DNA of 62,854 nucleotides, taken from positions 1 through 62,854 of the forward strand of contig JAJKHS010000140.1 in NCBI GenBank assembly GCA_021154885.1, given 5' to 3'. The notes beneath the pieces are model-generated. The model worked only from the letters and a program-made list of their open reading frames with translations, searched no databases and was not told the origin of the DNA. Origin of the DNA: Thermoanaerobaculum sp. Its GTDB lineage: Bacteria; Acidobacteriota; Thermoanaerobaculia; Multivoradales; UBA5704. A program made the translations under genes and the position numbers. Positions 13,919 through 62,854 of this stretch are shown one piece after another (position 1 is the first letter of the stretch; every line of letters starts with the position of its first letter).

Positions 13919-13985
13919 GAGGGCCTCACGACCGGCCAGCGATCGCTCTAAGGTCGTCTGGTCTGGGCCTTGTCGAGGCAGCAAC

Positions 13986-14153
13986 GACTGCTGCCAGGAC
14001 AGCGATGGCTGCTGCTGGGACAGCGATGATTGCTGCCGAGCCAGCGATGACCGCTGCCGAGCCAGCGACGACTGCTGCCAGGACAGCGATGGCTGCTGCT
14101 GGGACAGCGATGATTGCTGCCGAGCCAGCGATGCCCCCTGCCGAGGTCGCAGG
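13986..14153. repeat. 21-bp minisatellite with 84-bp higher-order period
   Basis: Seven consecutive 21-bp units (13986-14132) plus one degenerate unit, of the type GACTGCTGCCAGGACAGCGAT. Units 1-3 are repeated exactly as units 5-7, giving an 84-bp higher-order period. It fills most of the gene-free stretch 13919-14343 between the Rieske gene and vapB. It can be read as Ala-rich heptads on either strand, but such an ORF would overlap the Rieske gene and is not accepted as coding. Confidence 0.9.
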
Positions 14154-27994: not shown

Positions 27995-46147
<18,153 letters not shown>

Positions 46148-46157
46148 GGTCAGGTCG

Positions 46158-49100
46158 ATGAGCGAAAGTCCCCAGCCCCAGGGCGTGGCCATCATCGGTA
46201 TGGCCGGCCGGTTCCCCGGCGCGGCGAGCCTGGAGCGGTTCTGGGAGAACCTCCGCGACGGCGTGGAGTCGGTCTCCTTCTTCACCGGCGACGAGCTGCT
46301 GGCCGCGGGTGTGGACCCGGCGCTGCTGGCCGATCCCGCCTATGTCCGCGCCCGCGGGGTCCTCGACGGCGTCGAGGATTTCGACGCCGCCTTCTTCGGC
46401 TTCACGCCGCGCGAGGCCGAGGTGATGGACCCGCAGCACCGCATCCTCCTCGAATGCGCCTGGGAGGCCCTGGAGGACGCGGGCCAATGTCTGGAGCACC
46501 TGGAGCACCCGGAGCGCGCGGGCGGCCGGGCGGCCGTCTACGCCGGCTCCGGCGCCAGCTCCTACCTGTTCTCCAACCTGCTACCCAACGCCGGCCTGCT
46601 GGCGGCGGTGGGCCCCCTCCAGGCCATGCTGCTCAACGACCGCGACTTCCTGGCCACCCGCCTCTCCTACAAGCTCGATCTCAAGGGGCCGAGCGTGCTG
46701 GTGCAGACGGCGTGCTCGACCGGCCTCACGGCCGTCCACATGGCGAGCCAGAGCCTGCTCTCGGGCGAGGCCGACCTGTGCCTCGCCGGAGCGGTGTCGA
46801 TCGCCCTGCCGTCGAAGGACGGCTATCTCTATCAGGAGGGGGGGATCGCCTCGCCGGACGGCCACTGCCGGGCTTTCGACGCCGCGGCCGGCGGCTCGGT
46901 GGTGGGCGACGGCGCCGGCGTCGTGGTCCTCAAGCGCCTGGCCGACGCCCTGGCGGACGGCGACCGCATCTACGCCGTCCTCCGCGGCTCGGCGGTGAAC
47001 AACGACGGCGCCGGCAAGGTGGGCTTCACCGCTCCCAGCGTCGAGGGGCAGGCGGAGGTGATCACCGAGAGCCTGCTGATGGCCGGGGTCGAGCCCGCCT
47101 CCATCGCCTACGTCGAAGGGCACGGCAGCGGCACGGCGCTGGGTGATCCCATCGAGGTGACGGCCCTCGCCCAAGCCTTCGCCGCGGCCGGCGGCACGGC
47201 CTCCTGCGCCCTGGGCTCGGTGAAGACCAACGTCGGCCACCTCAACACGGCGGCGGGCATGGCCGGTCTGATCAAGACGGCCCTGGCCCTCCAGCACGCC
47301 ACCATCCCGCCCAGCCTGCACTTCGAGCGGCCCAACCCGCAGTGCGATTTCGGACCGTTCCACGTCCCCACCCGCGCCCTGCCCTGGCCGGCGGACCGTT
47401 CGCCCCGGCGGGCGGCGGTGAGCTCCTTCGGCCTGGGCGGAACCAACGTCCACGCCGTGCTGGAGGAGGCGCCGCCGGCCGCGCCCTCGGGTCCCTCGCG
47501 GCCCTGGCAGCTCCTCACCGTCTCGGCCCGCACAGAGACGGCCCTGGACGCAGCCTGCCGGCGTTTGGCGGACCGGCTGGAGAGCGAGGATCTGGATCTC
47601 TCCCCCTTGGCCGATGTCGCTTTCACCCTGCAGATGGGACGCAAGGCGTTCTCCAAGCGGCGGGCCGTGGTCTGCGGGGACCGCGCCGAGGCCGTCGCCG
47701 CCCTGCGCGGGTCCCAAGGCGCCCGCGGCAACTTCGAGGGGAGCGAGCGGCCGGTCGTGTTCCTGTTCCCCGGCCTGGGCGACCACGCGGTCGGCATGGG
47801 CAGGGACCTCTACGATTCCGAGCCCGTCTTCGCCGCCGAGGTCGACCGCTGCGCGGAGATCCTGGCGCCCCATCTCGGGGTCGACGTCCGCGACGTACTG
47901 TTCGCTTCGGTGCCCCGCTCGTCCGGTCCCGATTTTCGCGCCATGGTGCAACGGAACACGGCGCCGCTGGACGCGGCCGGGCAACGGCTGGCGCGCACCG
48001 AATTCGCTCAGCCCGCCGTCTTCGCCGTGGAGTACGCCCTGGCCCGGCTGCTGATGTCCTGGGGCGTTCACCCTCAGGCGATGATCGGCTACAGCCTGGG
48101 CGAGTACGTGGCCGCGACTCTCGCCGGCGTCCTCTCCCTGGAGGACGCGCTGGCCCTGGTGGCGCGACGGGCGAAGCTCATCCAGGAGCTGCCCGCGGGC
48201 GCCATGCTGGCCGTGCCGCTGCCGGAGGCCGAGGTGCGGCCGCTGCTGGACGAGAATCTGTCGCTCGCGGCCACCAACGGTCCCCACTTCTGCGTCGTGG
48301 CCGGTCCCGAGGCGGCGGTCGCGGCGGCGGAGTCGCTCCTCTCCAGCCGCGGCGTCGCCTGCCTGCGCCTCACCACCACGCACGCCTTCCACTCGCGGAT
48401 GATGGCGCCGGCCGTGGCGCCGCTGACCGGGATCGCCCGCACGTTGTCGACCTCAGCGCCGGCCATCCCCTACGTCTCCAACGTCACCGGCACCTGGATC
48501 ACCGCCGAGGACCTCGCCGACCCCGGCTACTGGGCCCGTCACATGACGCAGCCCGTGCGCTTCGCCGAGGGGCTCACCGAGCTGCTGCGCGAGCCGGACC
48601 GCGTGATGCTGGAGGTGGGGCCGGGCGCCACCCTCTCCACGCTGGTTCGCCAGCTCGGCACCGCGGCCCCGGTTGCCGCGACCACTCTGGGCCGGGCCGG
48701 TGAGGGCGACGAGACGGCGCTCCTCCTCGAGGCTCTCGGCCGCCTGTGGACGGCCGGCGCCCGCTTCGATCCCGCCGGTCTCTTCGCCGGCGAGCAACGG
48801 CGCCGGGTGCGGCTCCCCACCTACCCATTCGAGCGCCAGCGCTACTGGATCGATCCCCCGGCCCGCGGCAGCGCCCCGACTGTGGACGCTTCGTCCCGAT
48901 CCGATATCGCGGACATTGCCGACTGGTTCTGGGCGCCGTCGTGGCAGCAGGTCCCCCTGGCGACGACTTCGCCCGCGGCGGCGGCGGATGGCGGCTGGCT
49001 GATCTTTCTTGACGAAACCGGCCTGGGCGAGCGGATCGCGGAACGGCTGCGCCAGGAAGGGCGCGCCGTGGCCACGGTTCCCCCAGGGAGCCAGGACCAC

Positions 49101-50684
49101 GATCTCTTCGCCAGCGGCGGCCGGCTGCCCGCGAACATCCTCCACCTCCAGGGCGTGACGGCGGCGGAGCCTTCGTACGACGACGCCCAGGCCGCGGGGT
49201 TGCTGAGCCTCGTGCGGCTGGAGCAGGCCGTCACCGCCCGCGGGGGCGAGCCGGAGCCGATGCACATCACGGTCATCGCCAACGGCCTCCATGAGGTCAT
49301 GGACGGCGATCCGGTTCATCCGGCCAAGGCCACGGTCCTGGGCGCCGTGAGGGTGATCCACCAGGAGTCGGCGCGGCTGAGCTGCGCCAGCGTCGACGTC
49401 TCCCTGGCCTCTGCCTCTCCGGAGCGCCTCGTGGACCAGCTCCTCGCCGAGGCCCGGCGGGGCGCCGCGGCCGGCGGCGGCACGGTGGCTTATCGTGGGC
49501 GACAGCGCTGGGTGCAGGACTTCGCGCCGGTTCCCTTGAGCGCCTCCGGCGATTCGCTCCTCAAGCCGGGAGCCGCCTACCTGATCACGGACGGCCGCCA
49601 CGGCGCGGCCCTGGCCGCGTTCCTGGTGAACGAGCTCGGCGCCCGGGTGGCGATGCCCGGCGAGGCGGTCGGTCCCGGGATCGTCGCCGTCCCCCAGGGC
49701 GAGCCAGCCGAGGTTCTCACCGCGGCCCGCGCCGCCCTCGGGCCGATCCAGGGCGTCTTCCACACCGGTGGCGCCTTCACCGGCGGCCTGATCCAGCTCA
49801 AGACGGCCGAGTCCCTGAAGGCGGCGATCGATCCCGCCACGCGGGGCGCGGTCTCTTGGCTAGAAGCTGTGGACACCACACCCGAGCCGCCGGCCTTCCT
49901 CCTCCTGATGTCCTCCACCCTGGCTTTCACCGGCGGCCTGGGACAGCTCGACCTCGCCGCCGCCGGCGCCTTCCTCGACGTCTTGGCCCAGCGCCGGGCG
50001 GCCGGAGGTGGCACCCGGACCGTGGCGGCCCACTGGGACCCCTACCAGTGGGACGGCTGGCTGGTCGCCGCCGCGGCCGGGGGCGTCGCTGGCCTTCAGC
50101 CGGACGAGGTCCAGAAGAGCCTGGACGCCTGGGGCGTCTCCTCCGAGAGGAGCGGCGAGGCCCTCCGCCGCCTGCTCGCCACGGACCTCCCCCGTGCCGT
50201 GATCGCCTCGCGCGACGTGCACGGCATGATCGCCGAGGCCGACGCGGTGACGGCCGAGACCCTCCTCGCGCAGATGGGCGCGGCCCACGGCGGCCAGGGC
50301 GGCCCCGGCGGAGAAAGAGCGCCGCGGCCGGACCTCTCCACCCCCTACACGGCGCCCCGCAACGAGCGCGAAACCATTCTGGCCACCCTCTGGGAGGAGC
50401 TGTTCGGCATCGCCCCCCTGGGCGTCGACGACAGCTTCCTCGAGCTGGGCGGCCACTCGCTCCTCGCCATCCAGATGGTGACCCAGATCCGCAACCGCCT
50501 GGCGGCCGACCTGCCGGTGACGGCCCTCTTCGAGTCGCCCACCATCGCCGAGCTGGCCAAGGCCGTGGCCCGCGCGAAAGGCGAGGAGAGCGAGGAGGAC
50601 CTGGAAGCCCTCCTCGCCTTGGTGGAGGAGCTCTCGCCTGAGGAGGCGGCGCAGAAGCTGGCGGAGATGGAGACTGTGCATTGA
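46158..50684 (+). CDS. Type I PKS module: KS-AT-(degenerate KR)-carrier
   Basis: 1508 aa, starting 10 bp after the NRPS stop. The KS (about 8-435) has Cys186 in TACSTG, His322 in EGHGSGT and His361 in TNVGHL, so it is complete. The AT (about 530-850) has Ser646 in GYSLGEY and HAFHS near 742, a malonyl-type signature. Residues about 910-1340 look like a ketoreductase region, but the glycine-rich NADPH loop is missing (LITDGRHGAALA) and the Tyr/Asn part of the active site is replaced (GQLDLAAAGAFLD), so it is probably inactive. A carrier domain (Ser1434 in LGGHSLL, more PCP- than ACP-like) and an acidic helical tail follow. It should add one malonate-derived unit and leave a beta-keto group. 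Confidence 0.92.
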   Translation: MSESPQPQGVAIIGMAGRFPGAASLERFWENLRDGVESVSFFTGDELLAAGVDPALLADPAYVRARGVLDGVEDFDAAFFGFTPREAEVMDPQHRILLECAWEALEDAGQCLEHLEHPERAGGRAAVYAGSGASSYLFSNLLPNAGLLAAVGPLQAMLLNDRDFLATRLSYKLDLKGPSVLVQTACSTGLTAVHMASQSLLSGEADLCLAGAVSIALPSKDGYLYQEGGIASPDGHCRAFDAAAGGSVVGDGAGVVVLKRLADALADGDRIYAVLRGSAVNNDGAGKVGFTAPSVEGQAEVITESLLMAGVEPASIAYVEGHGSGTALGDPIEVTALAQAFAAAGGTASCALGSVKTNVGHLNTAAGMAGLIKTALALQHATIPPSLHFERPNPQCDFGPFHVPTRALPWPADRSPRRAAVSSFGLGGTNVHAVLEEAPPAAPSGPSRPWQLLTVSARTETALDAACRRLADRLESEDLDLSPLADVAFTLQMGRKAFSKRRAVVCGDRAEAVAALRGSQGARGNFEGSERPVVFLFPGLGDHAVGMGRDLYDSEPVFAAEVDRCAEILAPHLGVDVRDVLFASVPRSSGPDFRAMVQRNTAPLDAAGQRLARTEFAQPAVFAVEYALARLLMSWGVHPQAMIGYSLGEYVAATLAGVLSLEDALALVARRAKLIQELPAGAMLAVPLPEAEVRPLLDENLSLAATNGPHFCVVAGPEAAVAAAESLLSSRGVACLRLTTTHAFHSRMMAPAVAPLTGIARTLSTSAPAIPYVSNVTGTWITAEDLADPGYWARHMTQPVRFAEGLTELLREPDRVMLEVGPGATLSTLVRQLGTAAPVAATTLGRAGEGDETALLLEALGRLWTAGARFDPAGLFAGEQRRRVRLPTYPFERQRYWIDPPARGSAPTVDASSRSDIADIADWFWAPSWQQVPLATTSPAAAADGGWLIFLDETGLGERIAERLRQEGRAVATVPPGSQDHDLFASGGRLPANILHLQGVTAAEPSYDDAQAAGLLSLVRLEQAVTARGGEPEPMHITVIANGLHEVMDGDPVHPAKATVLGAVRVIHQESARLSCASVDVSLASASPERLVDQLLAEARRGAAAGGGTVAYRGRQRWVQDFAPVPLSASGDSLLKPGAAYLITDGRHGAALAAFLVNELGARVAMPGEAVGPGIVAVPQGEPAEVLTAARAALGPIQGVFHTGGAFTGGLIQLKTAESLKAAIDPATRGAVSWLEAVDTTPEPPAFLLLMSSTLAFTGGLGQLDLAAAGAFLDVLAQRRAAGGGTRTVAAHWDPYQWDGWLVAAAAGGVAGLQPDEVQKSLDAWGVSSERSGEALRRLLATDLPRAVIASRDVHGMIAEADAVTAETLLAQMGAAHGGQGGPGGERAPRPDLSTPYTAPRNERETILATLWEELFGIAPLGVDDSFLELGGHSLLAIQMVTQIRNRLAADLPVTALFESPTIAELAKAVARAKGEESEEDLEALLALVEELSPEEAAQKLAEMETVH

Positions 50685-52195
50685 CCGGTTTTGATCAGGT
50701 CAGGGACCGCCTCTCCGCCCTCACGCCGGAGCAGCGGGCGCTGTTCGAGGCCCTGCGCCGCAAGCAGCAGGCCGCCGGGCCGCCGGCTCCGCCGCCGGTG
50801 CCCCGCGTCACAGGTCCCACGTCGGCCGGCGACTGGCCCCTCTCCATCGACCAGGAGCGGCTCTGGCGCCTGCACCGGGACAACCCGAGCCTGGTCTCCT
50901 GGAACGTCGACGCCGCCAGCCGGCTGCGGGGCGAGCTGGACGTGCCCGCCCTGGAGGCGGCCCTGCGGGAGATCGTCCGCCGCCACGCCGCCCTGCGCGC
51001 CAGCTTCCCCTTGGTCGACGGCCGCCCCGTGCAGCGGGTGGCCGCGCGAATCTCCCTCGTCCTGCCGCTGATCGACGTCAGCGCCCTGCCGCCCCTGCCC
51101 AATGAATTGCGGGAAGGGGAGGGGCTCCGCGCCCTGTTCGACCGCACGCGGGCGGTCTTCGACCTGGAGCGCGGACCACTGGTGCGGGCCACCCTGGTCC
51201 GCCTCGGGCCCGGTGATCACCTCTGCCTGCTGACCCTCCACCATACGGTCACCGACTGGATCACCTTCCAGGTCGTGATGCACGAGATGATGGTGCTCTA
51301 CGAAGCGGCCCGCGCCGGCCTCGCGAGCCCTCTCCCCGAGCCCGAGCTGCAGTTCCCGGACTACGCCGTCTGGGAGCGGCGGTGGTGGAGCGGCGAGATC
51401 CTGGCCGAGTACACGGAGTTCTGGCGGCGCGAGCTGGCCGGCTTTCCACTCGTCCTCGACCTGCCGGGGGGCCTGCCGGGCGACCGGCCGCGGCGGCCGC
51501 GGCCGGCGGTGCAGAGTCAGCGCGGCGGCATGGTCCCGTTCTCGACCGGTCCCGAGGCCGCCCACCGGCTGCGCGCCCTCGCCCGCCGCGAGGGGGTGAC
51601 GCCGTTCATGGCCCTCCTCGCCCTGGTGGACGCCCTCCTCTTCCGCCTCACCGGCCGCGACAAGCTCGTCGTCGGCTCCAACAGCGCCAACCGCCCGCGG
51701 CCGGAGCTGGAGGCGGTCGCCGGGCTCTTCCTCACCCAGGTCCCCTTCGCCGTGGACCTCGCGGGCGATCCCACCTTCCACGAGCTGCTGGCACGGGTGA
51801 AGAAGGCGTCCGTCCTCGCCTACGGCCACCAGAACATGCCTTTCGACAAGCTGGTGGAGGCCCTGGAGATCGAGCCGGACGCGAGCCGCTTCCCTGTCGT
51901 GCAGGTGCTCCTCCTCGTCCTCGAAGGCCAGAGCCACGCCAGCGCCGGCAGCCTCGACTCCGCCGCCGTGCCGCTCTACGACGGCAACTCCCGCTGGGAC
52001 CTCCTGTTCGGGCTCTACAACTACGAGGACCTCGGCTTCTCCGGCGCGATCGAATTCAACGCCGACGTCCTGGACCAGGCCACGGTGGAGCGCTGGCTGG
52101 TCCTCTTTCGCCGCATCCTGGAGCGGGTGACAGCCGATCCGGACCTCCGGCTGTCCGAGCTCCCGGCGCTCGCGGACGCGGAGGCGGCGGCATGA
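50681..52195 (+). CDS. Stand-alone NRPS condensation domain
   Basis: 504 aa. TTG at 50681 overlaps the PKS stop (TTGA), so translation is probably coupled; no in-frame ATG or GTG lies close upstream. Residues 8-28 form a helical motif (LSALTPEQRALFEALRRKQ), which recurs at the start of the next protein and probably docks to the carrier of the preceding protein. A complete condensation domain follows, with HHTVTDW (HHxxxD intact), RPRRPRP, and the AYGHQNMPFDKLVEAL latch motif. There is no adenylation or carrier domain. The next protein also begins with a C domain closely related to this one, so two C domains act in series after the PKS. One may condense the ketide and the other catalyse a different acyl transfer or dehydration; this is not decided by sequence. 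Confidence 0.9.
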   Translation: MTGFDQVRDRLSALTPEQRALFEALRRKQQAAGPPAPPPVPRVTGPTSAGDWPLSIDQERLWRLHRDNPSLVSWNVDAASRLRGELDVPALEAALREIVRRHAALRASFPLVDGRPVQRVAARISLVLPLIDVSALPPLPNELREGEGLRALFDRTRAVFDLERGPLVRATLVRLGPGDHLCLLTLHHTVTDWITFQVVMHEMMVLYEAARAGLASPLPEPELQFPDYAVWERRWWSGEILAEYTEFWRRELAGFPLVLDLPGGLPGDRPRRPRPAVQSQRGGMVPFSTGPEAAHRLRALARREGVTPFMALLALVDALLFRLTGRDKLVVGSNSANRPRPELEAVAGLFLTQVPFAVDLAGDPTFHELLARVKKASVLAYGHQNMPFDKLVEALEIEPDASRFPVVQVLLLVLEGQSHASAGSLDSAAVPLYDGNSRWDLLFGLYNYEDLGFSGAIEFNADVLDQATVERWLVLFRRILERVTADPDLRLSELPALADAEAAA

Positions 52196-55100
52196 GCGTC
52201 GCGGACCGCCTCGCCTCGCTGACTCCCGAGCAGCGGGCCCTGTTCGAGGCCCTGCGCGAGAAACAACGCCAAGCAGTGCCTGTCGCGCCGCCCCCCATCG
52301 AGCGGGTGAGCGGTCCGCGCGGCGTGGGCGACTGGCCCCTGACCTTCGACCAGGAGCGGCTCTGGTTCCTCTACCTGCTCGATCCGGCGAGCAGCTCCTA
52401 CAACATGATCACGGCCACGCGGCTGGCGGGCGATCTCGACGCCGCGGCGCTGGAGGCGGCCCTCGACGGCACTCTCGACCGCCACGGCGCCTGGCGCACC
52501 ACCTTCCCGCTGGTCGACGGCCGGCCGGTGCAGCGGGTGGCGCCAGAGCTGCGGCTGCGGTTGCCGCTGGTGGACCTGGGGGGCCTGCCGCCCGAGCGCC
52601 GCGAGGCCGCGGTCCTGGCCCTCGCGCACGAGGACGCCCGGCGCCCCTTCTCCCTGGAGCGCGGACCGCTGGTACGGGCGACCCTGGCGCGGCTCTCGCC
52701 GCGCGAGCACGTGTGCATCCTGACGGTCCACCACATCGTCAGCGACCTGGTCAGCTTCCAGCTCTTCTGGGGCGAGCTGGCTCTGCTCTACTCGTCCCTG
52801 CCGTCCTTGCTGTCCCTGCCGTCCCTTCCCATCCAATTCGTCGACTTCGCCGTCTGGCAACGCCGCTGGCTGCAAGGCGAGGTCCTCCAGCAGGAGCTCG
52901 ACTGGTGGCGCGAGCAGCTCCGCGGCTTCCCCCTGGTGCTCGACCTCCCCGGCGACCGCCCCCGGCCGCCAGAGCAGACGTCGCGCGGCGGCCGCCAGCC
53001 CGTATTCCTCGACGCGGCGCTGACGGAGGCCCTGCGGACCCTGGCGCGGCGCGAGGGGGTGACGCGGTTCATGGCCGTCCTCGCCCTCTCCGCGGCCCTG
53101 TTCCACCGCCTCTCGGGCCAGGAACGGCTGATCGTCGGCACCATCAACGCCAACCGCAGCCGGCCCGAGGTGGCTCCCCTCCTCGGCTTCTTCGTCACCC
53201 AGCTTCCCCTGGCCGTGGACCTGGCGGGCGATCCCACGTTCCGCGAGCTGCTCGGCCGGGCGCGGGCCGCGGCCCTGGGCGCCTTCGCCCACCAGCACCT
53301 GCCGTTCGGCAAGCTGGTGGAGGCCCTGCAGCCGGAGCGGGACGCCAGCCGCATGCCCGTGGTCCAGACCGTGGTGCAGCTCCTCGAGGCTCACGGCGGC
53401 GGCGGCGAGCCGCGGCTGGGGAGCCTCGCCCTGGAGAGCCTCGAGATCGACAACGGCAGCGCCGCCTACGACCTGATGTTCGGCCTCGTCGAGCACGCGG
53501 ACCACGTCGCCGGCCCCGTCGAGTACAACGCCGACCTCTTCGATCGCACCACCGTGGCCCGCATGGCCGAGGGGCTCGCCGCCCTGCTGGACGCCGCGGC
53601 CGCCGATCCCGGCCTGCGTCTGTCGGCGCTGCCGGCGTTCACCTCCCCGGCCCGCCACCAGATGCTCGCTGAGTGGAACGCCACCGCGGTCTCCCACCCC
53701 TCCGGCGAGAGCCTCCACGAGCTGGTCGAGGCCCAGGTGGACCGCACGCCGGAGGCCGTGGCCGTGACTTTCGAGGGCGCGAGCCTCTCCTACCGCGAGC
53801 TCGACCGCGCCGCCAACCGCCTCGCCCGGCGCCTGCGGTCGCTGGGCGTGGGCCCGGAGGTGCGGGTGGGCGTCCGCCTGGAGCGCTCGCTGGAGATGGT
53901 GGTGGCCCTGCTCGCCGTCCTCAAGGCGGGTGGCGCCTGGGTGCCCGTCGATCCCGCGAGCCCGGCCGAGCGCCTCGCCCTGCTCCTGGAGGAGGCGGAC
54001 GTGCGCCTGGTGCTGACCCCGGAGCGGCTGGGCGGGGAGGGGGCCGCGGAGCGCCTGCCGAGCGGCGTCAGCTCCGCCTGCGCCATCACCGCGGGCAACG
54101 CCGCCTACGTCATCTTCACCTCCGGCTCCACCGGCCGGCCCAAGGGGGTGGTCAACACCCATGGCGGCATCCGCAACCGGCTGCTGTGGATGCAGGAGGC
54201 CTACGGGCTGGGAGCGCACGACCGGGTGCTGCAGAAGACCCCGCTCGGCTTCGACGTCTCGGTCTGGGAATTCTTCTGGCCGCTGATGACGGGCGCGCGG
54301 CTGGTGATGGCCCTGCCCGGCGGCCACCAGGACCCGGCCTACCTGGTGCGGACGATCGCGGCAGAGGGGGTGACGACCGTGCACTTCGTCCCCTCCATGC
54401 TCCAGGCGTTCCTGGAGGAGCCGGACCTCGCGGCGCGCCTCCCCTCGCTCCGGCGGATCATCGCCAGCGGCGAGGCCCTCTCCCTGGAGCTGCGGCAGCG
54501 CTGCCTGGCGCGCCTGCCCGGCGTCGAGCTGCACAACCTCTACGGCCCCACCGAGGCCGCCGTGGACGTGACGTCCTGGGACTGCCGCGCCGCGGCCGGC
54601 GCGCGGGTGCCCATCGGCCGGCCGGTGGCCAACACCCGCATCCACCTGCTGGACCGCGAGCGGCGGCCCGTCCCCCTCGGCGCCGCGGGCGAGCTGTGCA
54701 TCGGCGGCGTACAGCTCGCCCGCGGCTATCTCGGCCGGCCGGACCTCACGGCCGGGAGCTTCGTCCCCGACGCCGTGAGCGGCCTCGCCGGCGAGCGCCT
54801 CTATCGCACGGGGGACCTGGCGCGATGGCTGCCGGACGGCGCTCTCGAATACCTGGGCCGGCTCGACTTCCAGGTCAAGGTGCGGGGCTTCCGCGTCGAG
54901 CCGGGCGAGATCGAGGCCGCCCTGGCCGCCCTGCCGGGAGTGCGCCAGGCGACGGTACTGCTGCGCGAGGACCGCCCCGGCGACCGCCGGCTGGTGGCCT
55001 ACGTGACCCCCGAAGGGCTTGCCACCTCGGTCGCCGGGCTGCGCGACGGCCTGCGCCGGCGCCTGCCCGAGCCGCTGGTCCCCGCCGCCTTCGTGGCGCT

Positions 55101-58100
55101 GCCGGCGCTGCCCCTCAACGCCAGCGGCAAGGTGGACCGCCGAGCCCTCGCCGGCCCCGGATTCCGTCCCGGCCAGGAGGAGGCTGTCGAATCGGACGTA
55201 GAGCCAGGCACTGAGCTGGAGCGGGAGATCGCCGCTCTCTGGGCCGACGTGCTGGGGGTCGAGCGTGTGGTCGGCGCGCGGCGGAGCTTCTTCGACCTCG
55301 GGGGGCACTCGCTGCTCGCCACCCAGCTCGTGATGCGGCTCCGGGAGGCCCTCGGCGTCGAGCTGCCGCTGCGCGCGATCTTCCAGGCGCCCACCGTGGC
55401 GGCCCAGGCGCGGCTCGTCGAACAGGCCCGGGCGGGCGGCGATTCGCACCGCGCCCGGCCGCCCATTGCCCGCGTCTCCCGGGACAGCCGGGACGGCGAC
55501 CTGCCCCTCTCCTTCGCCCAGGAGCGCCTCTGGTTCCTCGACCAGCTCACCCCGGGGAGCCCGGCCTACAACGTGCCCGCGGCCTTCGACGTGCGGGGCG
55601 CGCTCGACGTGCCCGCCCTGGAGCGGGCTTTCGCCGCAGTCGTGCGCCGCCACGAGGTGCTGCGCACGTCGTTCCCGTGCCGCGGCGCGCGCCCCGTCCA
55701 GGAGATCGCGGCGCCTTCAGGCTGGACCCTGCCGGTCGAGGATTTCTCTCCGACCGCCGCAGCCGAAGAGGCCCTGCGGCCGTTCGACCTCGCCCGCGGG
55801 CCGCTGCTGCGCACCCGCCTGCTGCGGATCACCCCCGAGCATCACGTGCTCCTCGTCACCGTCCACCATGTCGCCGCGGACCTGTGGGGGGTCGGGGTGC
55901 TGATCCGTGAGGTGGCCGAAATCTATGCCGGAGCGGATCTCCCCGAGCTGCCCGTGCAGTATGCCGACTTCGCCGTCTGGCAGCGGGAGTGGCTGAACGG
56001 CGCGGAGCTGGAACGCCAGCTCGCCTTCTGGCGGCGGGAGCTGGCAGGCGCGCCGCCCGCCCTGGAGCTGCCCACCGACCGGCCGCGGCCCCCCGTCGAG
56101 AGCTTCCGCGGCGCCAGCCTGCCGCTGGCCCTCGGGAGCGAGCTGAGCCGCGGTCTCCAGGCCCTGGGCCGGGCCCGGGGCGCCACGCCCTTCATGACGA
56201 TGACCGCCGCCCTCGGCGTCCTCCTCTCGCGCTGGACGGGCCAGGACGACGTCGTGCTGGGCTCGCCCATCGCCAACCGCCCGGCGCCCGAGCTCGCGGG
56301 GCTGATCGGCATGTTCGTCAACACCCTGGCGCTGCGCGTGCGGCTCGCCGGGGCCGCCAGCTTCGAGGATCTGCTCGCCCGGGTGCGGCGCACCTGCCTC
56401 GACGCCTTCGAGCACCAGGACCTCCCCTTCGAGCGTCTGGTCGAGGAGCTGAAGCCGCGTCGCGATCTGTCGCGGCACCCGCTGTTCCAGGCCGCCCTGG
56501 CCTTTCAGAACGTGCGCCTCACCGCCCTGGAGGTGCCGGGCCTCGTGCTCGAGCCCCTGAGCGTCGCGAGCGCCACCACCAAGTTCGACCTCACCTTCAC
56601 CCTGTTCGAGGCGGAGGACGGGCTCGCCGGCCAGGTGGAGTACGCCACCGACCTGTTCGACGCCGCCACCGTCGAGCGCCTGCTGGGGCACCTGCGCAAC
56701 CTGCTGGCCGGGATCGCCGCAGTGCCCGGCACTCTCCTGGAGGACCTGCCGCTGCTGGGCGAAGGGGAGCGCCGGCAGATCCTCTCCGAGTGGAGCGGCG
56801 CCGCGCCGGCCTTCCCGCGCCAGGCGACGATCCACGGCCTGTTCGCCGGGCAGGCGGCGCGGACGCCGGACGCCGTCGCGGTCGTCCTCGGCGACGCGGC
56901 GCTGACCTACGCCGGGCTCGCGGCGCGCGCCGGCCGCGTCGCCGCCCGTCTGCGGCGCCGCGGGATATTGCCCGAGACGCGGGTGGCGGTGACGGGCGAG
57001 CGGTCGCTCGACCTCGTCGCGAGCCTGCTCGGCATCCTCCAGGCCGGCTGCGCCTACCTGCCGCTGGACCCCGAGCTCCCGCCGGAGCGCCGGGCCTTCC
57101 TCCTCGCCGATGCCGGAGCCGTGCCGCTGCCACAGGAGGAGGAGGACGAGGCGGACGACGAAGGCACGGCGTTCCCGCCGCCGCCCGTCGCCCCGGACCA
57201 GCTCGCCTACGTGACCTACACCTCGGGCTCGACCGGCACACCCAAGGGGGTCGCCGTCACCCACCGCAACGTCGTCAGGCTGGTCCGGGGCTCCGGCTTC
57301 GCCCACCTGGGGCCGGAGGAGACGTTCCTGCAGCTCGCCCCCCTGGCCTTCGACGCCGCGACGCTGGAGATCTGGGCGCCGCTCCTGAACGGCGGGCGCC
57401 TGGTCCTGTTCCCCGGCCGCCGCGCGTCGCTGGACGAGATCGGCGAGGCCATCGCCCGCCACGGCGTGACCACCCTCTGGCTCACCGCCGGCCTCTTCCA
57501 CCAGATGGTGGACGAGCGGCCGCAGGCCCTGCGCCCCCTGCGCCAGCTCCTGGCCGGCGGCGACGTGCTGTCGCCCGCGCACGTGCGCCGGGCCCTGGAG
57601 GCCCTGCCCGGCGTCGCGCTGATCAACGGCTACGGCCCGACGGAGAACACGACGTTCACGGCCTGCCGGACCCTGGTCTCTGCCGACGTCGCAGATGGCG
57701 CCGGGCCGGTGCCCATCGGCCGCCCCATCGGAGGCACGCGGGTCTACGTGCTCGACGCGGCCCTGCGGCCGGTGCCGGAGGGGGTCTGGGGCGAGCTGTT
57801 CGCGGGCGGCGACGGCGTGGCTCGCGGCTATCTCGGCCGGCCGGAGCTGACGGCGGAGCGGTTCCTCCCCGATCCCTTCGGTCCGCGGCCGGGCGGCCGC
57901 CTCTATCGCACGGGCGACCTCGTCCGCTGGCGAGCGGGCGTGCTGGAGTTCCTCGGCCGGCGCGACGGCCAGGTGAAGATAAGGGGGCACCGGATCGAGC
58001 TGGGCGAGGTCGAGGCGGCGCTGACCGCCCATCCGGCCGTGGGCGAGGCGGTGGTGGCAGTTGCCGCGGTGCGCGAGGACCGGCCCGGGGACCGCCGGCT

Positions 58101-59562
58101 GGTGGCCTATGTGACGGCCGCCTCCGAGCTTGTGCCTGATACTGCGCCCGACGCTGGGGAGCTGCGCCGCCACCTGGCCTCCCGGCTCCCCGAGCCTTAT
58201 ATCCCCACGGTCTTCGTGCTCCTCGACCGTCTCCCCCTGACGCCCAACGGCAAGGTGGACCGCCGGGCGCTGCCCGCTCCGGAGGGCACCGCCGCGGCGC
58301 AGTCCCACGTGCCTCCCGAGACGCCGGTGGAGGAGTGGCTGACGGCGGTCTGCGCCGAGGTGCTGGGCCTGGAGAGCGCCGAGCGTGTGAGTGTGTGCGA
58401 CAACTTCTTCGCCCTCGGCGGCCACTCCCTCCTCGCCACTCGATTCGTCGCCCGGCTGCGGGAGCTGTACGGCCTCGACGTGTCCCTCCAGATGGTGTTC
58501 GACGCCGCCGACCTGCGCGACCTCGGGGACCGCATCGTGGAGCGCGAGCTGGCGGCGGCGGACGGCTCCCTGCCGGCCGATGATCCGGTCCAGGCGCTCC
58601 AGCCGATCCCGCAGTCATCCGCCGTCCTCCCCCTGTCCCAGGCTCCCTACGAGCCCCCGGAGACGCCGGTCGAGGAGCTCCTGGCGGCGGTCTGCGCCGA
58701 GGTGCTGGGCATCGAGCGCGTGGGCGTGCATGACAACTTCTTCGCCCTCGGCGGCCACTCCCTCCTCGCCACTCAGCTCGTGGCCCGGCTGCGGGACCGC
58801 TACAACCTCGACGTACCCGTCCAGATGGTGTTCGACGCCGCCGACCTGCGCGACCTCGCGGACCGCATCATGGAGCGCGAGTTGGGGGAGGCAGCGCTCC
58901 AGCCGCTCCCGCCGCTCGCCGCCGCCCCTCCCGTGTCCCCGGCGACCTACGAGCCCCCGGAGACGCCGGTGGAGGAAGCGCTGACGGCGGCCTGCGCCGA
59001 GGTGCTGGGACTGGAGCGCACGGGGGTGCGCGACAACTTCTTCGCCCTCGGCGGCCACTCCCTGCTCGCCACCCAGCTCCTGGCCCGGCTGCGCGAGCGC
59101 TACAGCCTCGACGTGCCCCTGCAGATGGTCTTCGACGCCGCCGACCTGCGCGACCTCGCGGACCGCATCGTGGAGCGCGAGCTGGCGGCGGCGGACGCCC
59201 CCCCGCCGGCTGATTCCTCCGTCCAGTCGATCCCGCCGCCCTTCGCCGTCCTTTCCGAGTCCCTGGCGCCCTACGAGCCGCCGGAGACGCCGGTGGAGGA
59301 GGCGCTGGCGGCGGTCTGCACCGAGGTGCTGGGTATCGAGCGCGTGGGGATGCGCGACAACTTCTTCCTCCTGGGCGGCCACTCCCTTCTCGCCACCCAG
59401 CTCGTGGCCCGGCTGCGCGAGCGCTACGACCTCGACGTGCCCGTGCAGACGGTGTTCGACGCCGCCGACCTGCGCGACCTCGCGGATCGTATCCTGGAGC
59501 GCGAGCTGGCGGCGGCGGACGGCGAGCTGCTGGCCGAGATCCTGGACCAGGAGGGCGGATGA
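52192..59562 (+). CDS. NRPS: C-A(Ser)-PCP-C-A(Val)-PCP-PCP-PCP-PCP
   Basis: 2456 aa. ATG 52192 overlaps the previous stop (ATGA). Residues 1-25 carry the docking-like LASLTPEQRALFEALREKQ. C (about 48-490, HHIVSDLV), A (500-985) with signature DVWHISLVDK (serine), PCP (Ser near 1040), C (1105-1530, HHVAADLW), A (1565-2025) with signature DALWLGGTFK (valine). Then four consecutive carrier domains with phosphopantetheine serines at about 2079, 2190, 2290 and 2398, each in GGHSLL. The three extra copies share linker YEPPETPVEE and most of their sequence, so they arose by recent tandem duplication. There is no thioesterase. It adds Ser and Val; the carriers may raise flux or hold chains for trans-acting enzymes. 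Confidence 0.95.
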   Translation: MSVADRLASLTPEQRALFEALREKQRQAVPVAPPPIERVSGPRGVGDWPLTFDQERLWFLYLLDPASSSYNMITATRLAGDLDAAALEAALDGTLDRHGAWRTTFPLVDGRPVQRVAPELRLRLPLVDLGGLPPERREAAVLALAHEDARRPFSLERGPLVRATLARLSPREHVCILTVHHIVSDLVSFQLFWGELALLYSSLPSLLSLPSLPIQFVDFAVWQRRWLQGEVLQQELDWWREQLRGFPLVLDLPGDRPRPPEQTSRGGRQPVFLDAALTEALRTLARREGVTRFMAVLALSAALFHRLSGQERLIVGTINANRSRPEVAPLLGFFVTQLPLAVDLAGDPTFRELLGRARAAALGAFAHQHLPFGKLVEALQPERDASRMPVVQTVVQLLEAHGGGGEPRLGSLALESLEIDNGSAAYDLMFGLVEHADHVAGPVEYNADLFDRTTVARMAEGLAALLDAAAADPGLRLSALPAFTSPARHQMLAEWNATAVSHPSGESLHELVEAQVDRTPEAVAVTFEGASLSYRELDRAANRLARRLRSLGVGPEVRVGVRLERSLEMVVALLAVLKAGGAWVPVDPASPAERLALLLEEADVRLVLTPERLGGEGAAERLPSGVSSACAITAGNAAYVIFTSGSTGRPKGVVNTHGGIRNRLLWMQEAYGLGAHDRVLQKTPLGFDVSVWEFFWPLMTGARLVMALPGGHQDPAYLVRTIAAEGVTTVHFVPSMLQAFLEEPDLAARLPSLRRIIASGEALSLELRQRCLARLPGVELHNLYGPTEAAVDVTSWDCRAAAGARVPIGRPVANTRIHLLDRERRPVPLGAAGELCIGGVQLARGYLGRPDLTAGSFVPDAVSGLAGERLYRTGDLARWLPDGALEYLGRLDFQVKVRGFRVEPGEIEAALAALPGVRQATVLLREDRPGDRRLVAYVTPEGLATSVAGLRDGLRRRLPEPLVPAAFVALPALPLNASGKVDRRALAGPGFRPGQEEAVESDVEPGTELEREIAALWADVLGVERVVGARRSFFDLGGHSLLATQLVMRLREALGVELPLRAIFQAPTVAAQARLVEQARAGGDSHRARPPIARVSRDSRDGDLPLSFAQERLWFLDQLTPGSPAYNVPAAFDVRGALDVPALERAFAAVVRRHEVLRTSFPCRGARPVQEIAAPSGWTLPVEDFSPTAAAEEALRPFDLARGPLLRTRLLRITPEHHVLLVTVHHVAADLWGVGVLIREVAEIYAGADLPELPVQYADFAVWQREWLNGAELERQLAFWRRELAGAPPALELPTDRPRPPVESFRGASLPLALGSELSRGLQALGRARGATPFMTMTAALGVLLSRWTGQDDVVLGSPIANRPAPELAGLIGMFVNTLALRVRLAGAASFEDLLARVRRTCLDAFEHQDLPFERLVEELKPRRDLSRHPLFQAALAFQNVRLTALEVPGLVLEPLSVASATTKFDLTFTLFEAEDGLAGQVEYATDLFDAATVERLLGHLRNLLAGIAAVPGTLLEDLPLLGEGERRQILSEWSGAAPAFPRQATIHGLFAGQAARTPDAVAVVLGDAALTYAGLAARAGRVAARLRRRGILPETRVAVTGERSLDLVASLLGILQAGCAYLPLDPELPPERRAFLLADAGAVPLPQEEEDEADDEGTAFPPPPVAPDQLAYVTYTSGSTGTPKGVAVTHRNVVRLVRGSGFAHLGPEETFLQLAPLAFDAATLEIWAPLLNGGRLVLFPGRRASLDEIGEAIARHGVTTLWLTAGLFHQMVDERPQALRPLRQLLAGGDVLSPAHVRRALEALPGVALINGYGPTENTTFTACRTLVSADVADGAGPVPIGRPIGGTRVYVLDAALRPVPEGVWGELFAGGDGVARGYLGRPELTAERFLPDPFGPRPGGRLYRTGDLVRWRAGVLEFLGRRDGQVKIRGHRIELGEVEAALTAHPAVGEAVVAVAAVREDRPGDRRLVAYVTAASELVPDTAPDAGELRRHLASRLPEPYIPTVFVLLDRLPLTPNGKVDRRALPAPEGTAAAQSHVPPETPVEEWLTAVCAEVLGLESAERVSVCDNFFALGGHSLLATRFVARLRELYGLDVSLQMVFDAADLRDLGDRIVERELAAADGSLPADDPVQALQPIPQSSAVLPLSQAPYEPPETPVEELLAAVCAEVLGIERVGVHDNFFALGGHSLLATQLVARLRDRYNLDVPVQMVFDAADLRDLADRIMERELGEAALQPLPPLAAAPPVSPATYEPPETPVEEALTAACAEVLGLERTGVRDNFFALGGHSLLATQLLARLRERYSLDVPLQMVFDAADLRDLADRIVERELAAADAPPPADSSVQSIPPPFAVLSESLAPYEPPETPVEEALAAVCTEVLGIERVGMRDNFFLLGGHSLLATQLVARLRERYDLDVPVQTVFDAADLRDLADRILERELAAADGELLAEILDQEGG
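52794..52827. repeat. Reverse-orientation GTCCCTGCN 9-bp repeat in C domain
   Basis: Reads SSLPSLLSLPSLP, between the HHxxxD helix and the QFVDFAVWQRRWL motif of the first C domain of the Ser-Val protein. It belongs to the same 9-bp family as 41750-41781 but is read in another frame. Confidence 0.75.
55481..55495. repeat. Minimal GGGACAGCN repeat before the second C domain
   Basis: Two partial units read SRDSRDGD in the linker between PCP and C, the shortest recognised member of the family. Confidence 0.5.
58309..59537. repeat. Four tandem carrier-domain repeats (300-342 bp units)
   Basis: Corresponding linker positions are 58309, 58651, 58951 and 59275, giving periods of 342, 300 and 324 bp. 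The core of each unit, from DNFF(A/L)LGGHSLLAT to VFDAADLRDL, is nearly identical; linkers differ in length and composition. All four phosphopantetheine serines are kept. Confidence 0.95.
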
Positions 59563-62500
59563 GCGAGCCGCCGGCCGATCCGCACTGGGCCGGGCTCTCC
59601 CGCGCTGAGAAGGCGCGGCTGTTCGAGCGCCTGCGCGCCCGCAAGGGACTGCCGCTGGGGCCCGCCGCGAATGCCGCAGCCACTGCGGGCACAGGGGCCG
59701 ACGCCCCCATTCCGCGGCTCGTCCCGCGGCCGGACCCGCTCCCCCTCTCCTTCGCTCAGCAGCGGCTCTGGTTCCTCGACCGTCTCCATCCGGGCGATCC
59801 GTCCTACAACGTCCCCACCGTGCTGGAGATCGCGGGTCCCTTCCGCCCCGCGGCCCTGCGGCGCGCCCTGGCTGACCTCACGGACCGTCACGAGGCCCTG
59901 CGCACCACCTTCGCCGAGGTCGACGAGCGGCCGGTGCAGGTGGTGGCTCCCGCCCTCGCCGTGCCGCTGCCCGTCGTCGACCTCGCGGCCGTGCCGGAGC
60001 CCGCCCGCGGCGCGGAGACGGAGAGGATCGTGCGCGCCGAGGTGCTCCGGCCCTTCGACCTCGCGGCCGGGCCGCTGCTGCGCGCCCTGCTGGTGCGGTG
60101 GGAGCCGGAGCGCCACGTCGCCATCCTCGACCTCCACCACATCGTCTGCGACGGCTGGTCGCTCGGCGTGCTGGTGCGGGAGATGGCGGCCCTCTACGCG
60201 GCCGCGGCGGCGGACACCCCGGCCGCCCTGCCGCCATTGCCGCCGCTGCCCATTCAGTACGCCGACTTCGCCGTCTGGCAGCGCCAGTGGCTCCAGGGTC
60301 CGCGGCTGGAGCGGCAGCTCGCCTTCTGGCGCCAGCAACTGGCGGGCATCCAGCCCCTGCGCCTGCCCACCGACCGGCCACGCCCGCCCCGCCGCGGCTC
60401 CGCCGGCGGCGCCTGCCCCGTGGCGATCGAGCCCGCCGCCGCGGCGCGGCTCCAGGCCTTCGCCCGGGCGGAGCGGGCGACGCCGTTCATCGTCCTGCTC
60501 GCCGCCTGGCAGGCCCTCCTCGGCCGCCTCGCCGGCCAGGACGACGTCGCGGTGGGCACGCCCGTCGCCAACCGTACCCGCTCGGAGACGGCCGGCCTGA
60601 TCGGCTTCTTCGTCAATACCCTGGTGCTGCGGGGCGACCTGTCCGGCGATCCCACCTTCCGCGAGCTGGCCGGGCGGCTGCGCGCGGTGGCCCTCGCCGC
60701 CTTCGCCCACCAGGACCTCCCCTTCGAGCGCCTGGTCGAAGAGCTGCGCCTGGGGCGCAGCCGCACACCCCTCTTCCAGGCCCTCCTCGTCCTGCAGAAC
60801 GCGCCCGCGTCCGCGCTGGCCGCGGGGGATCTCGAGATGCGCGACCTCGAATTCCCCATTACCACCGCCAAGTTCGACCTCAGCCTCGTCATGATCGAGC
60901 TGCCGGACGGCCGCGGCTTCAAGGGGGTCCTGGAATACAGCGCCGAGCTGTTCGAGGCCACGACCGCCGAGCGCCTCGCCCGCGCCTTCGAGGTCCTGCT
61001 CGCCGCCGCCCTGGCGGATCCGGAACGGCGCCTCTCGGACCTCCCCCTGGCCGCCGCGGGCCTGCCCGAAGCCGGGCGCTCCGAGGCCGCTCCCGGCCCG
61101 GCGCCCCTCTCCTTCCCCCAGGAGCGCCTCTGGTTCCTCGACCGCCTCAAGCCGGGGACGGCCCTCTACAACATCCCCGGCCCCTTGCGCCTGCGGGGTC
61201 CCCTGGACGTCGCCGTGCTGGCCCGCTGCTTCGACGAGGTCCGGCGCCGCCATGCCGCGCTGCGCACCCGCTTCGCCGAGCACGACGGCACGGGAGTCCA
61301 GATCATCGATCCCTGGCAGCCCCGCTCGCTCCCCTCGCTCCCCTTAGTGGATCTCGGCGGCCTGCCGGAATCTTTGCGTCAGGACGAGGCCACACGGCTG
61401 ACCGAGGAGGAGACCGCCTGGCCCTTCGACCTCGGCCGCGGACCCCTCCTGCGCACCCTCCTGCTCCGGCTCTCCGGCGACGAGCACGCGCTGCTCCAGA
61501 CCGTGCACCACATCGTCTCGGACGGCTGGTCCGTCGAGGTGATGAAGCGCGAGCTGACCACCCTCTATGCGGCCTTCGCCGCCGGGCTGCCCTCCCCCCT
61601 GCCCGCCCTGCCCTGGCAGTACGCCGACTTCGCCCGCTGGCAGCGCCAGCGGCTGACGGGGGAGGAGACGGAGCGCCAGATCGCCTGGTGGCGCCAGCGG
61701 CTGGGCGACGATCCGCCGCCCCTCGACCTCCCCCTCGACCGGCCGCGCCCGCCCCTCCAGACCTTCCGCGGCGGCCGCGTCCAGCGCCGGCTGCCCGCGG
61801 ACCTGGCGGACGGCCTGCGCCGGCTGGCCGCCGGCGTCCGCGGCTCGCTGTTCATGGCCCTCCTCGCCGGCTTCGACCTGCTGCTCTCCCGCCTCAGTGG
61901 TCAGGACGACGTGCTGGTGGGTACGCCCGTGGCCGGCCGCGTCCGCACCGACCTGGAGGGGCTCATCGGCTGCTTCCTCAACACCCTGGTCCTGCGCGCC
62001 GACCTCTCCGGCAACCCCACCTTTCGGCAGCTCCTGGGCCGGGTGCGCGACGCGGCCGTGGGCGCCTACGCCCATCAGGAGGTGCCGTTCGAGAAGCTCC
62101 TCGCCGAGCTCAAGCCCCAGCGCGATCTGTCGCGCACCCCCCTCTTCCAGGTCTTCTTCAACCTGCTGAGCTTCCCCGACCTCGGGGCGACCCTGCCCGG
62201 AGGCCTCACGGTCGATCCCCTGCCGGGCGCCGAAGCCGAATCCAAGTTCGACCTCACCGTCTATGCCGCGGAGATCCCGGACGGCATCTTCCTCGACGTT
62301 GTCTACAACGCCGACCTGTTCGACGCCCCGCGCATGGAGGAGATGCTGCGCCAGCTCGCCGCCGTGCTGACCCAGGCGGTGGCATCCCCCGAGGCCCCCC
62401 TCGACCGCTTCTCCCTGCTCACCCCCGAGGCCGCGGCCCTGCTGCCAGATCCCACGGCGCCCCAGAGCGATGAGTGGGTGGGGGCCGTGCACGAGCTGTT

Positions 62501-62854
62501 CGCCGAGCGGGCCCGCCGCCACCCCGAGCGGCCCGCGGTGCAGGACGACGACGGAACCTGGACCTACGGCGAGCTGGCCGCGGCCGTGAGCCGCCTCGCC
62601 GCCGGGCTGCGGGCGGCCGGGATCGAGCGCGGGGACCGGGTGGCGATCTGGGCCCACCGCAGCGCCCCCCTGGCCCAGGCCGTGCTCGGCGTGCTGGAGG
62701 CCGGTGCCGCCTTCGTGGTGCTCGATCCGGCCTACCCCGCCGCCCGGATCGTCGACATGCTGGACCTCGCCCGCCCCCGCGCCTGGGTGGCCCTCGCCGC
62801 CGCCGGCCCCGTGCCCGCCGAGGTCGAGGCCTTCCTCGACGCGAGCGGCGTCGC
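59559..62854 (+). CDS. NRPS, partial: C-C-A..., runs off window end
   Basis: ATG 59559 overlaps the preceding stop (ATGA); at least 1098 codons, open at the 3' end. Residues 13-30 (LSRAEKARLFERLRARKG) are a weaker version of the docking-like motif of the two preceding proteins. The first C domain (about 62-505) has HHIVCDGWS and HQDLPFERLVEEL. A short linker leads directly to a second complete C domain (about 512-950) with HHIVSDGWS and HQEVPFEKLLAEL, with no A or PCP between. An adenylation domain begins near 965 (WTYGELAAAVSRLAAGLR, then VLDPAYPAARIV) and is cut by the window; its signature cannot be read. Which C is used for peptide bond formation is unclear. Confidence 0.93.
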   Translation, partial: MSEPPADPHWAGLSRAEKARLFERLRARKGLPLGPAANAAATAGTGADAPIPRLVPRPDPLPLSFAQQRLWFLDRLHPGDPSYNVPTVLEIAGPFRPAALRRALADLTDRHEALRTTFAEVDERPVQVVAPALAVPLPVVDLAAVPEPARGAETERIVRAEVLRPFDLAAGPLLRALLVRWEPERHVAILDLHHIVCDGWSLGVLVREMAALYAAAAADTPAALPPLPPLPIQYADFAVWQRQWLQGPRLERQLAFWRQQLAGIQPLRLPTDRPRPPRRGSAGGACPVAIEPAAAARLQAFARAERATPFIVLLAAWQALLGRLAGQDDVAVGTPVANRTRSETAGLIGFFVNTLVLRGDLSGDPTFRELAGRLRAVALAAFAHQDLPFERLVEELRLGRSRTPLFQALLVLQNAPASALAAGDLEMRDLEFPITTAKFDLSLVMIELPDGRGFKGVLEYSAELFEATTAERLARAFEVLLAAALADPERRLSDLPLAAAGLPEAGRSEAAPGPAPLSFPQERLWFLDRLKPGTALYNIPGPLRLRGPLDVAVLARCFDEVRRRHAALRTRFAEHDGTGVQIIDPWQPRSLPSLPLVDLGGLPESLRQDEATRLTEEETAWPFDLGRGPLLRTLLLRLSGDEHALLQTVHHIVSDGWSVEVMKRELTTLYAAFAAGLPSPLPALPWQYADFARWQRQRLTGEETERQIAWWRQRLGDDPPPLDLPLDRPRPPLQTFRGGRVQRRLPADLADGLRRLAAGVRGSLFMALLAGFDLLLSRLSGQDDVLVGTPVAGRVRTDLEGLIGCFLNTLVLRADLSGNPTFRQLLGRVRDAAVGAYAHQEVPFEKLLAELKPQRDLSRTPLFQVFFNLLSFPDLGATLPGGLTVDPLPGAEAESKFDLTVYAAEIPDGIFLDVVYNADLFDAPRMEEMLRQLAAVLTQAVASPEAPLDRFSLLTPEAAALLPDPTAPQSDEWVGAVHELFAERARRHPERPAVQDDDGTWTYGELAAAVSRLAAGLRAAGIERGDRVAIWAHRSAPLAQAVLGVLEAGAAFVVLDPAYPAARIVDMLDLARPRAWVALAAAGPVPAEVEAFLDASGV

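Follow-up and report, generated by a model that had tools for sequence, protein, structure and literature searches.

Four tandem carrier domains at the end of a nonribosomal peptide synthetase protein of Thermoanaerobaculum sp. form a lineage-specific array

Gene B of Thermoanaerobaculum sp. encodes a nonribosomal peptide synthetase (NRPS) protein that ends in four consecutive carrier domains, T1–T4. The array is real and lineage-specific. NRPS modules with two carriers are already known, while no report of a module with three or more tandem carriers, and so none of the length of four seen here, was found in the open-access literature. We infer that all four carriers are charged, that they are used in parallel and that this brings a gain in flux. 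The reading that we prefer, with a rough probability of 0.47, is that four equivalent carriers, loaded with valine by a single adenylation (A) domain, raise occupancy at the handover to the next protein. The window, i.e., the whole stretch of DNA that was analyzed (62,854 bases), is one entire contig of a source genome of 8.2 Mb in 161 contigs. The host carrying this four-carrier peptide synthetase is a soil-type bacterium.

Gene B (52192..59562, plus strand; 2456 aa) was read as C-A-T-C-A-T1-T2-T3-T4 with Pfam and with our own HMMs, which were built from sequences in the window. Pfam placed two C, two A and five PP-binding domains above its cut-offs: the carrier of module 1 at 55225–55419, and the remaining four consecutively after the second A domain. 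The C, A and PP-binding domains thus follow in the order of an NRPS elongation module. NCBIfam pointed to no product family: in the families listed, which for B were the best 25 of 104, none of B, S and D (see below) reached an NRPS equivalog cut-off. Pfam found no methyltransferase (MT) domain in B. Upstream in the same assembly line, and likewise identified by Pfam on the plus strand, are P (46158..50684), a PKS protein with the order KS-AT-(KR, partial match)-carrier, and S (50681..52195), a stand-alone condensation (C) domain protein with a TTG start in this reading.

The next NRPS protein, D (59559..62854, plus strand; Pfam and profile HMMs), starts C-C-A and is stopped by the contig end. 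Two C domains precede its first A domain, in agreement with the initial annotation of two C domains in the next protein, and both carry HHxxxDG. The window end shares 82 identical bases with the end of contig C31, where D continues in frame to give C-C-A-T-C-A-T, its third C consisting of two partial matches taken as one domain with an insert. D stops 42 residues past its last carrier, a tail too short for a thioesterase, and a tRNA-Glu then follows. As read, the line consists of gene A (a starter, then five C-A-T modules), P, S, B and D; minus the starter and the PKS, it has 9 A domains, 11 C domains and 12 carriers, a surplus of two C domains and three carriers. The C-C arrangement at L014 was rejected as a second C-C example, since the carrier ahead of it has GGDS and the motifs make E-C the probable reading.

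The four carriers, all on the plus strand, span 58300..58533 (T1; Pfam match 58333–58536; Ser codon 58426), 58633..58866 (T2; 58678–58869; Ser codon 58759), 58933..59166 (T3; 58978–59169; Ser codon 59059) and 59257..59490 (T4, the last; 59302–59493; Ser codon 59383). T1 has a 3-residue insert before helix II. The presence of four consecutive PCPs, each with an intact GGHSLL serine, was confirmed by Pfam and by reading the serine codons, all four of which are TCC; the GGHS-to-GGHS distances are 111, 100 and 108 residues. The linkers are 33 aa long between T1 and T2 (58534..58632), 22 aa and Pro/Ala-rich between T2 and T3 (58867..58932), and 30 aa between T3 and T4 (59167..59256), and each contains a stretch with pLDDT under 50 in the structure model. 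That model (AlphaFold2, 13-row alignment; mean pLDDT 83.8, pTM 0.39) shows four sets of four helices plus a short extra C-terminal helix, and in each set the GG(H/D)S serine is the first residue of helix II (residues 43, 154, 254 and 362). T1–T4 are thus predicted to fold as separate domains. The extra helix (model residues 409–418) lies in the C-terminal tail, which with the stop codon spans 59491..59562 (plus strand), and is a possible docking helix. When the carriers were compared with solved structures, nothing but carrier-type matches was returned, going by the listed names.

The A domain of module 2 (56806..58272, plus strand) was characterized by pocket mapping and by its solved relatives. 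Its pocket, which we take from PheA position mapping to be DALWLGGTFK and to stand for valine, bears out the valine-type A domain annotated before the array. The first solved relative by E-value summed over two domains was LgrA, and the highest single-domain score was 4gr5_A, with 399 bits. With a valine-type A domain directly before T1, charging in trans is not needed for T1–T4.

Aligned in six pairs, T1–T4 are 72–85% identical in protein and 82–90% in DNA. T2–T4 are 82–85% (protein) and 87–90% (DNA) identical to each other, and T1 is 72–78% identical to them in protein; the near-identity ascribed to units 2–4 was therefore overstated. The six pairs have diverged with dS 0.13–0.30 and dN 0.09–0.18. 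Tandem Repeats Finder reported periods of 300 and 324 bp with matches of 84 and 88%, and the longest exact repeat within 58300–59559 is 43 bp, so ordinary short reads can separate the copies. The feared assembly artefact, a single carrier falsely multiplied, to which an assembly in 161 contigs, with the window as one of them, lends some color, is so very unlikely given exact repeats no longer than 43 bp, copies with 82–90% DNA identity and three linkers of different lengths (33, 22 and 30 residues) that we rejected it.

In a tree of 52 carriers, based on few columns and with a bootstrap that had not settled, T1–T4 form one clade (98/87). The sister set consists of the single gene-terminal carriers L011, L015 and L012 of two congeners (99/96), joined to T1–T4 at a fork with support 94/72; L011 and L015 come from JAICSG01 (a Thermoanaerobaculia MAG) and L012 from a congener taken as QHVW01, gp7 AA5. 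At the place matching the array, all three loci have a single carrier. The gene order at L015 (end of the PKS protein P, lone C, C-A-T protein, start of a C protein) is that found at the array, with 71% identity to its L015 counterpart both for the C-terminal 298 aa of P and for the lone C protein S. The C-A-T protein of L015 is 56.0% identical to module 1 of B and 55.3% to module 2, whereas its A-T part alone (L032, in the same genome) shares 64% identity with module 2 but 45% with module 1. At the sequence level, then, the A-T of L015 matches module 2 of B, while its C looks like the first C of B; the two genes also differ by one module. The L015 protein ends with one carrier, and its pocket, by PheA position mapping, reads DVLWLGGTFK, compared to DALWLGGTFK in B.

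The same gene order, the near-identical pocket and the single carrier at L015 indicate an increase from one carrier to four in this lineage. The initial annotation had proposed comparing copy number with related genomes, and the comparison gave one carrier in the closely matching congener module and four here; by these sequence comparisons, the four-carrier array is the product of a lineage-specific duplication. Of the recent duplication that had been suggested, the duplication itself thus stands, but a very recent origin does not: the copies have a dS of 0.13–0.30 from one another, about equal to the 0.28 that separates L011 from L012, the single carriers of two different congeners.

The array perhaps grew from one to two to four by doubling, with some exchange between copies, a reading of few sites that draws on split counts and on the pairing of T2 with T4 in the tree (86/91; the root is weak, 81/63). 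Among the informative sites, five split the copies 13|24, three 12|34 and one 14|23. The linkers T1–T2 and T3–T4, taken with slightly wider borders, agree at 95 of 111 aligned bases, the first 31 being identical; over 87 aligned bases, the shorter T2–T3 linker agrees with one of these two at 69 and with the other at 71. Gene conversion, the other origin that had been put forward, is possible but unproven, as the split counts are only in mild conflict.

Tandem carriers proved to be rare. In the genome itself, the close spacing goes beyond chance: 150 carriers were scored out of 211 first-look candidates (61 were unscored), and only the three neighboring pairs of the array had starts within 1 kb of each other, with 1686 and 1898 bp for the pairs that came next. 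A strict DNA pattern, consisting of two FF..GGHS carriers spaced 93–112 residues, gave four matches in 2 of the 148 genomes of the class: three of the matches are the array and one is a pair at L009 in a congener. The backwards control in the class gave no matches. The same pattern had no match in 195 genomes of Myxococcota (the phylum of Corallococcus) or in 249 genomes of the order of Nocardia alba, but it misses variants such as a congener pair at L010, which has FL, and it had no positive control outside the genus. A looser pattern matched 20 times across 14 of the 296 Actinomycetota genomes scanned, compared to 12 times in the backwards control; by HMM, none of the 20 loci had a carrier and two had an A domain. 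Many of these genomes are small, so the looser scan says little.

The four-carrier protein, used as a query at an E-value cut-off of 1e-32, matched 1 of 396 genomes of the phylum, which was this one (4 candidates scored per genome), and 3 of 148 genomes of the class (12 candidates scored per genome). The other two in the class were the congeners in which the L009 and L010 pairs and the lone carrier L011 are found; since L011 passed, the cut-off is no test for tandem carriers alone. A scan of named genomes for adjacent carriers found none in 16 loci, apart from a false tandem in Micromonospora (L019), which was rejected because a KS-AT region lies between the two carriers; the HMM set used on L019 contained no KS/AT models. 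The two tandem pairs known from the genus, L009 (C-T-T-C, JAICSG01) and L010 (A-T-T-C, QHVW01 gp7 AA5), resemble the array in being tandem T domains of an NRPS, but they have two carriers followed by a C on the same protein, and in the tree they fall outside the clade of T1–T4 and the gene-terminal carriers. L009 also differs from the array in having no A domain.

Several known systems invite comparison. The tandem carriers of PUFA synthases belong to a PfaA-type ketosynthase protein; the host protein here is not of that type, the array sitting on C-A-T-C-A-Tx4. PUFA arrays consist of ACPs of an iterative synthase, whereas those of B are NRPS PCPs at the protein end, beside an amino-acid A domain. 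The likeness lies in a run of intact carriers that resemble one another: by sequence and model, B has the three or more intact tandem carriers on flexible linkers typical of the PUFA type, and the linkers of OrfA are Ala/Pro-rich. PUFA synthases (PfaA/OrfA) have four to nine tandem ACPs (PMC5067506), compared to four PCPs in B, and these ACPs have been described as beads on a string (PMC3585217). Their titer is reported to track the ACP number with the product unchanged (PMC5067506), which makes a dosage effect plausible for the array in B.

Among NRPSs, KorC of the koranimine system is, like B, bacterial, with tandem T domains and valine; its T domains are two in number and receive their charge from an A domain on a different protein (PMC9640594), where B has four that directly follow an A domain of valine type. 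Charging of the KorC tandem T domains by KorD could be rate-limiting (PMC12283262). The fungal beauvericin and bassianolide synthetases (C1-A1-T1-C2-A2-MT-T2a-T2b-C3) share with B the order C-A-T-C-A-...-T-T in one protein, with twin or tandem carriers after the last A domain. They have two carriers, an MT and a terminal C3 in the same protein, and work by iterative cyclo-oligomerization. B, on the other hand, has four carriers, shows no MT by Pfam and, ending after T4, carries no terminal C3. Either twin carrier of beauvericin synthetase is enough for production, the titer of 33.8 mg/L being reduced to 0.7 or 23.0 mg/L, and in both fungal enzymes the loss of T2a is the costliest (PMC5457498). 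For cereulide synthetase, no duplicated PCP is reported (PMC4445039).

In the reading that we prefer, a valine-type C-A-T module would have gone from one gene-terminal carrier to four in this lineage. Its A domain would charge all four carriers with valine via the flexible linkers, and the carriers, being interchangeable, would take the chain in parallel from the C domain of the module and present it to the C domain at the N terminus of D. With a larger number of loaded arms on each protein, occupancy would then be higher at an otherwise slow inter-protein handover. Increased flux at a slow step, among the roles suggested for the array at the outset, is its simplest reading, with the gain in flux itself being the presumed part. 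Four carriers are not needed for the handover, since the homologous congener module has one. Carrier number is a known output dial in PUFA synthases (PMC5067506) and, as far as our search went, one hardly explored in NRPSs. Homologous modules with one carrier in the congener and four intact carriers here form a near-matched natural pair, which makes carrier dosage versus the programming of extra residues directly testable and would offer a simple engineering handle.

The main competitor is that the duplication is redundant, with one carrier working (T1 by the A domain, or T4 by the tail) and the others tolerated as drifting spacers. The single carrier at the matching place in L011, L012 and L015 is in line with this, as is the T2b mutant of beauvericin synthetase, which still yields 23.0 of 33.8 mg/L (PMC5457498). 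The substitutions in the four copies bear on the question from both sides. T1, T2, T3 and T4 differ from the majority codons by 14, 16, 12 and 19 nucleotide changes, which produce 29 amino-acid differences against a neutral mean of 42.6 (P 5e-5, 20,000 trials), under a uniform neutral model without base-composition bias. This deficit argues against drifting spacers, and from the pooled tests the four copies together are probably under purifying selection. Taken pair by pair, constraint was significant at p < 0.05 for 3 of 6 pairs; the exceptions, T1–T2 (p 0.24), T3–T4 (p 0.32) and T1–T4 (p 0.057), leave room for redundancy, and changes unique to a single copy gave p 0.055. The neutral probability that all four frames stay open with their serines is 0.17, so intactness alone is a weak sign of use. 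On balance, we consider redundancy unlikely, while granting it an appreciable share.

Conservation along the carriers is uneven. Among T1–T4, 9 of 10 columns are invariant in the DNFF..GGHS stretch and 14 of 18 in helices III–IV, compared to 12 of 19 in helix II plus loop 2 and 17 of 31 before DNFF, three of the latter columns being the insert of T1. The uniformity of the DNFF-to-serine stretch and of helices III–IV fits equivalent carriers. Helix II with loop 2 is a main partner surface of carriers, and here it is no more uniform than the preceding stretch, which leaves the equivalence of the carriers unproven; the helix II figure slightly lowered our confidence in the parallel-carrier reading, from 0.50 to 0.47.

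A different proposal is that of a relay or iteration, in which the one A domain loads several carriers, and the spare C domain of D joins valines between them, giving more than one valine per module. A valine relay is thinkable given this spare C, since D opens C-C with HHxxxDG in both and is C-C-A-T-C-A-T overall, and the A-less C-T-T-C of the congener L009 points the same way. Both tandem T domains of KorC are reported to be valine-charged by the KorD A domain (PMC9640594). However, the lone C protein S, which is also surplus, has its counterpart beside a one-carrier module in L015, showing that the presence of a spare C domain is not simply tied to the array. We find such a relay improbable, and its extended form across all four carriers, in which a single module would install at least two and as many as four valines, more improbable still; if true, the latter would amount to a one-A, many-T rule under which the number of carriers sets the program.

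We give little weight to a waiting position, in which extra carriers would keep intermediates while D is busy. The array does sit at the protein end, before an inter-protein step, and a proposal for enniatin synthetase gives one of its two PCPs such a role (PMC4445039), but the fungal twin carriers, either one being sufficient, favored a linear model (PMC5457498). A waiting position would also be hard to tell from parallel use.

A platform on which a halogenase or Rieske oxygenase acts in trans on carrier-bound valine is highly improbable. Both suggested genes do exist on the contig of the array: a flavin enzyme with GGWFWIIP (10954–12624, minus strand; Pfam Trp_halogenase 42.8 bits, cut-off 21, with 54 residues matched) and a Rieske oxygenase alpha subunit (12827–13918, plus strand; Pfam). 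The presentation of valine to them is the weak part, as some 45 kb separates them from the array and they lie at least 14 kb before the first NRPS gene, and their matches are far below the NCBIfam cut-offs, the flavin enzyme scoring 74 bits on the CmlS model against a cut-off of 900. Flavin halogenases usually need activated substrates, and valine is a poor substrate for them. As regards phosphopantetheinylation, PF01648 (ACPS) has two matches above its cut-off in the genome.

The NRPS protein encoded downstream of the four-carrier gene, referred to in the following as D, begins at 59559 and runs off the end of the window. The final 82 bases (62773–62854) were identical to the start of the reverse-complemented contig C31 from the same genome, and the reading frame of D remained open through the join. 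Directly beyond the join, the A domain of D contained an inverted repeat, in frame and about 120 bases long; a 160-base stretch there had a folding energy of −112 kcal/mol and matched its own reverse complement at 78% over 127 positions. The contig may have broken here because of this inverted repeat.

The first A domain of D (59559–62854 plus the continuation) had an unusual core, LSGLAHDPLHRDLF, and a specificity pocket of DPRNMVLRAK, which together brought to mind the Lys2-type aminoadipate enzymes.

Between the PKS and NRPS genes lies a protein with a single condensation domain (50681–52195), and both the protein and its position were retained at congener locus L015. At a second congener locus, L009 on contig C496 of JAICSG01, an NRPS had the organization C-T-T-C with no A domain in between; this tandem-carrier module lacking an A domain resembles the trans-charged koranimine protein KorC. 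The genome containing the window is itself highly NRPS-rich, with 150 PP-binding domains scored in 8.2 Mb. Its next of kin was among Acidobacteriota MAGs.

Tandem repeats of 9 bp were present within NRPS proteins at 33538–33579, 35051–35090 and 41675–41716, and their in-frame translation gave runs of the Ser-Asp-Arg type. At least four copies of one exact motif were found in none of the fetched loci, a count of that motif alone; proteins of the congener loci L012 and L013 contained runs resembling those in the window.

A flavin enzyme with a GGWFWIIP motif (10954–12624, reverse strand) and a Rieske oxygenase alpha subunit (12827–13918, forward strand) are encoded divergently. Both scored above the Pfam cut-off and missed the NCBIfam cut-offs by a wide margin. 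Directly after the Rieske gene is a tandem array (13974–14145) of two 84-base units, with a 95% match and a 21-base sub-period.
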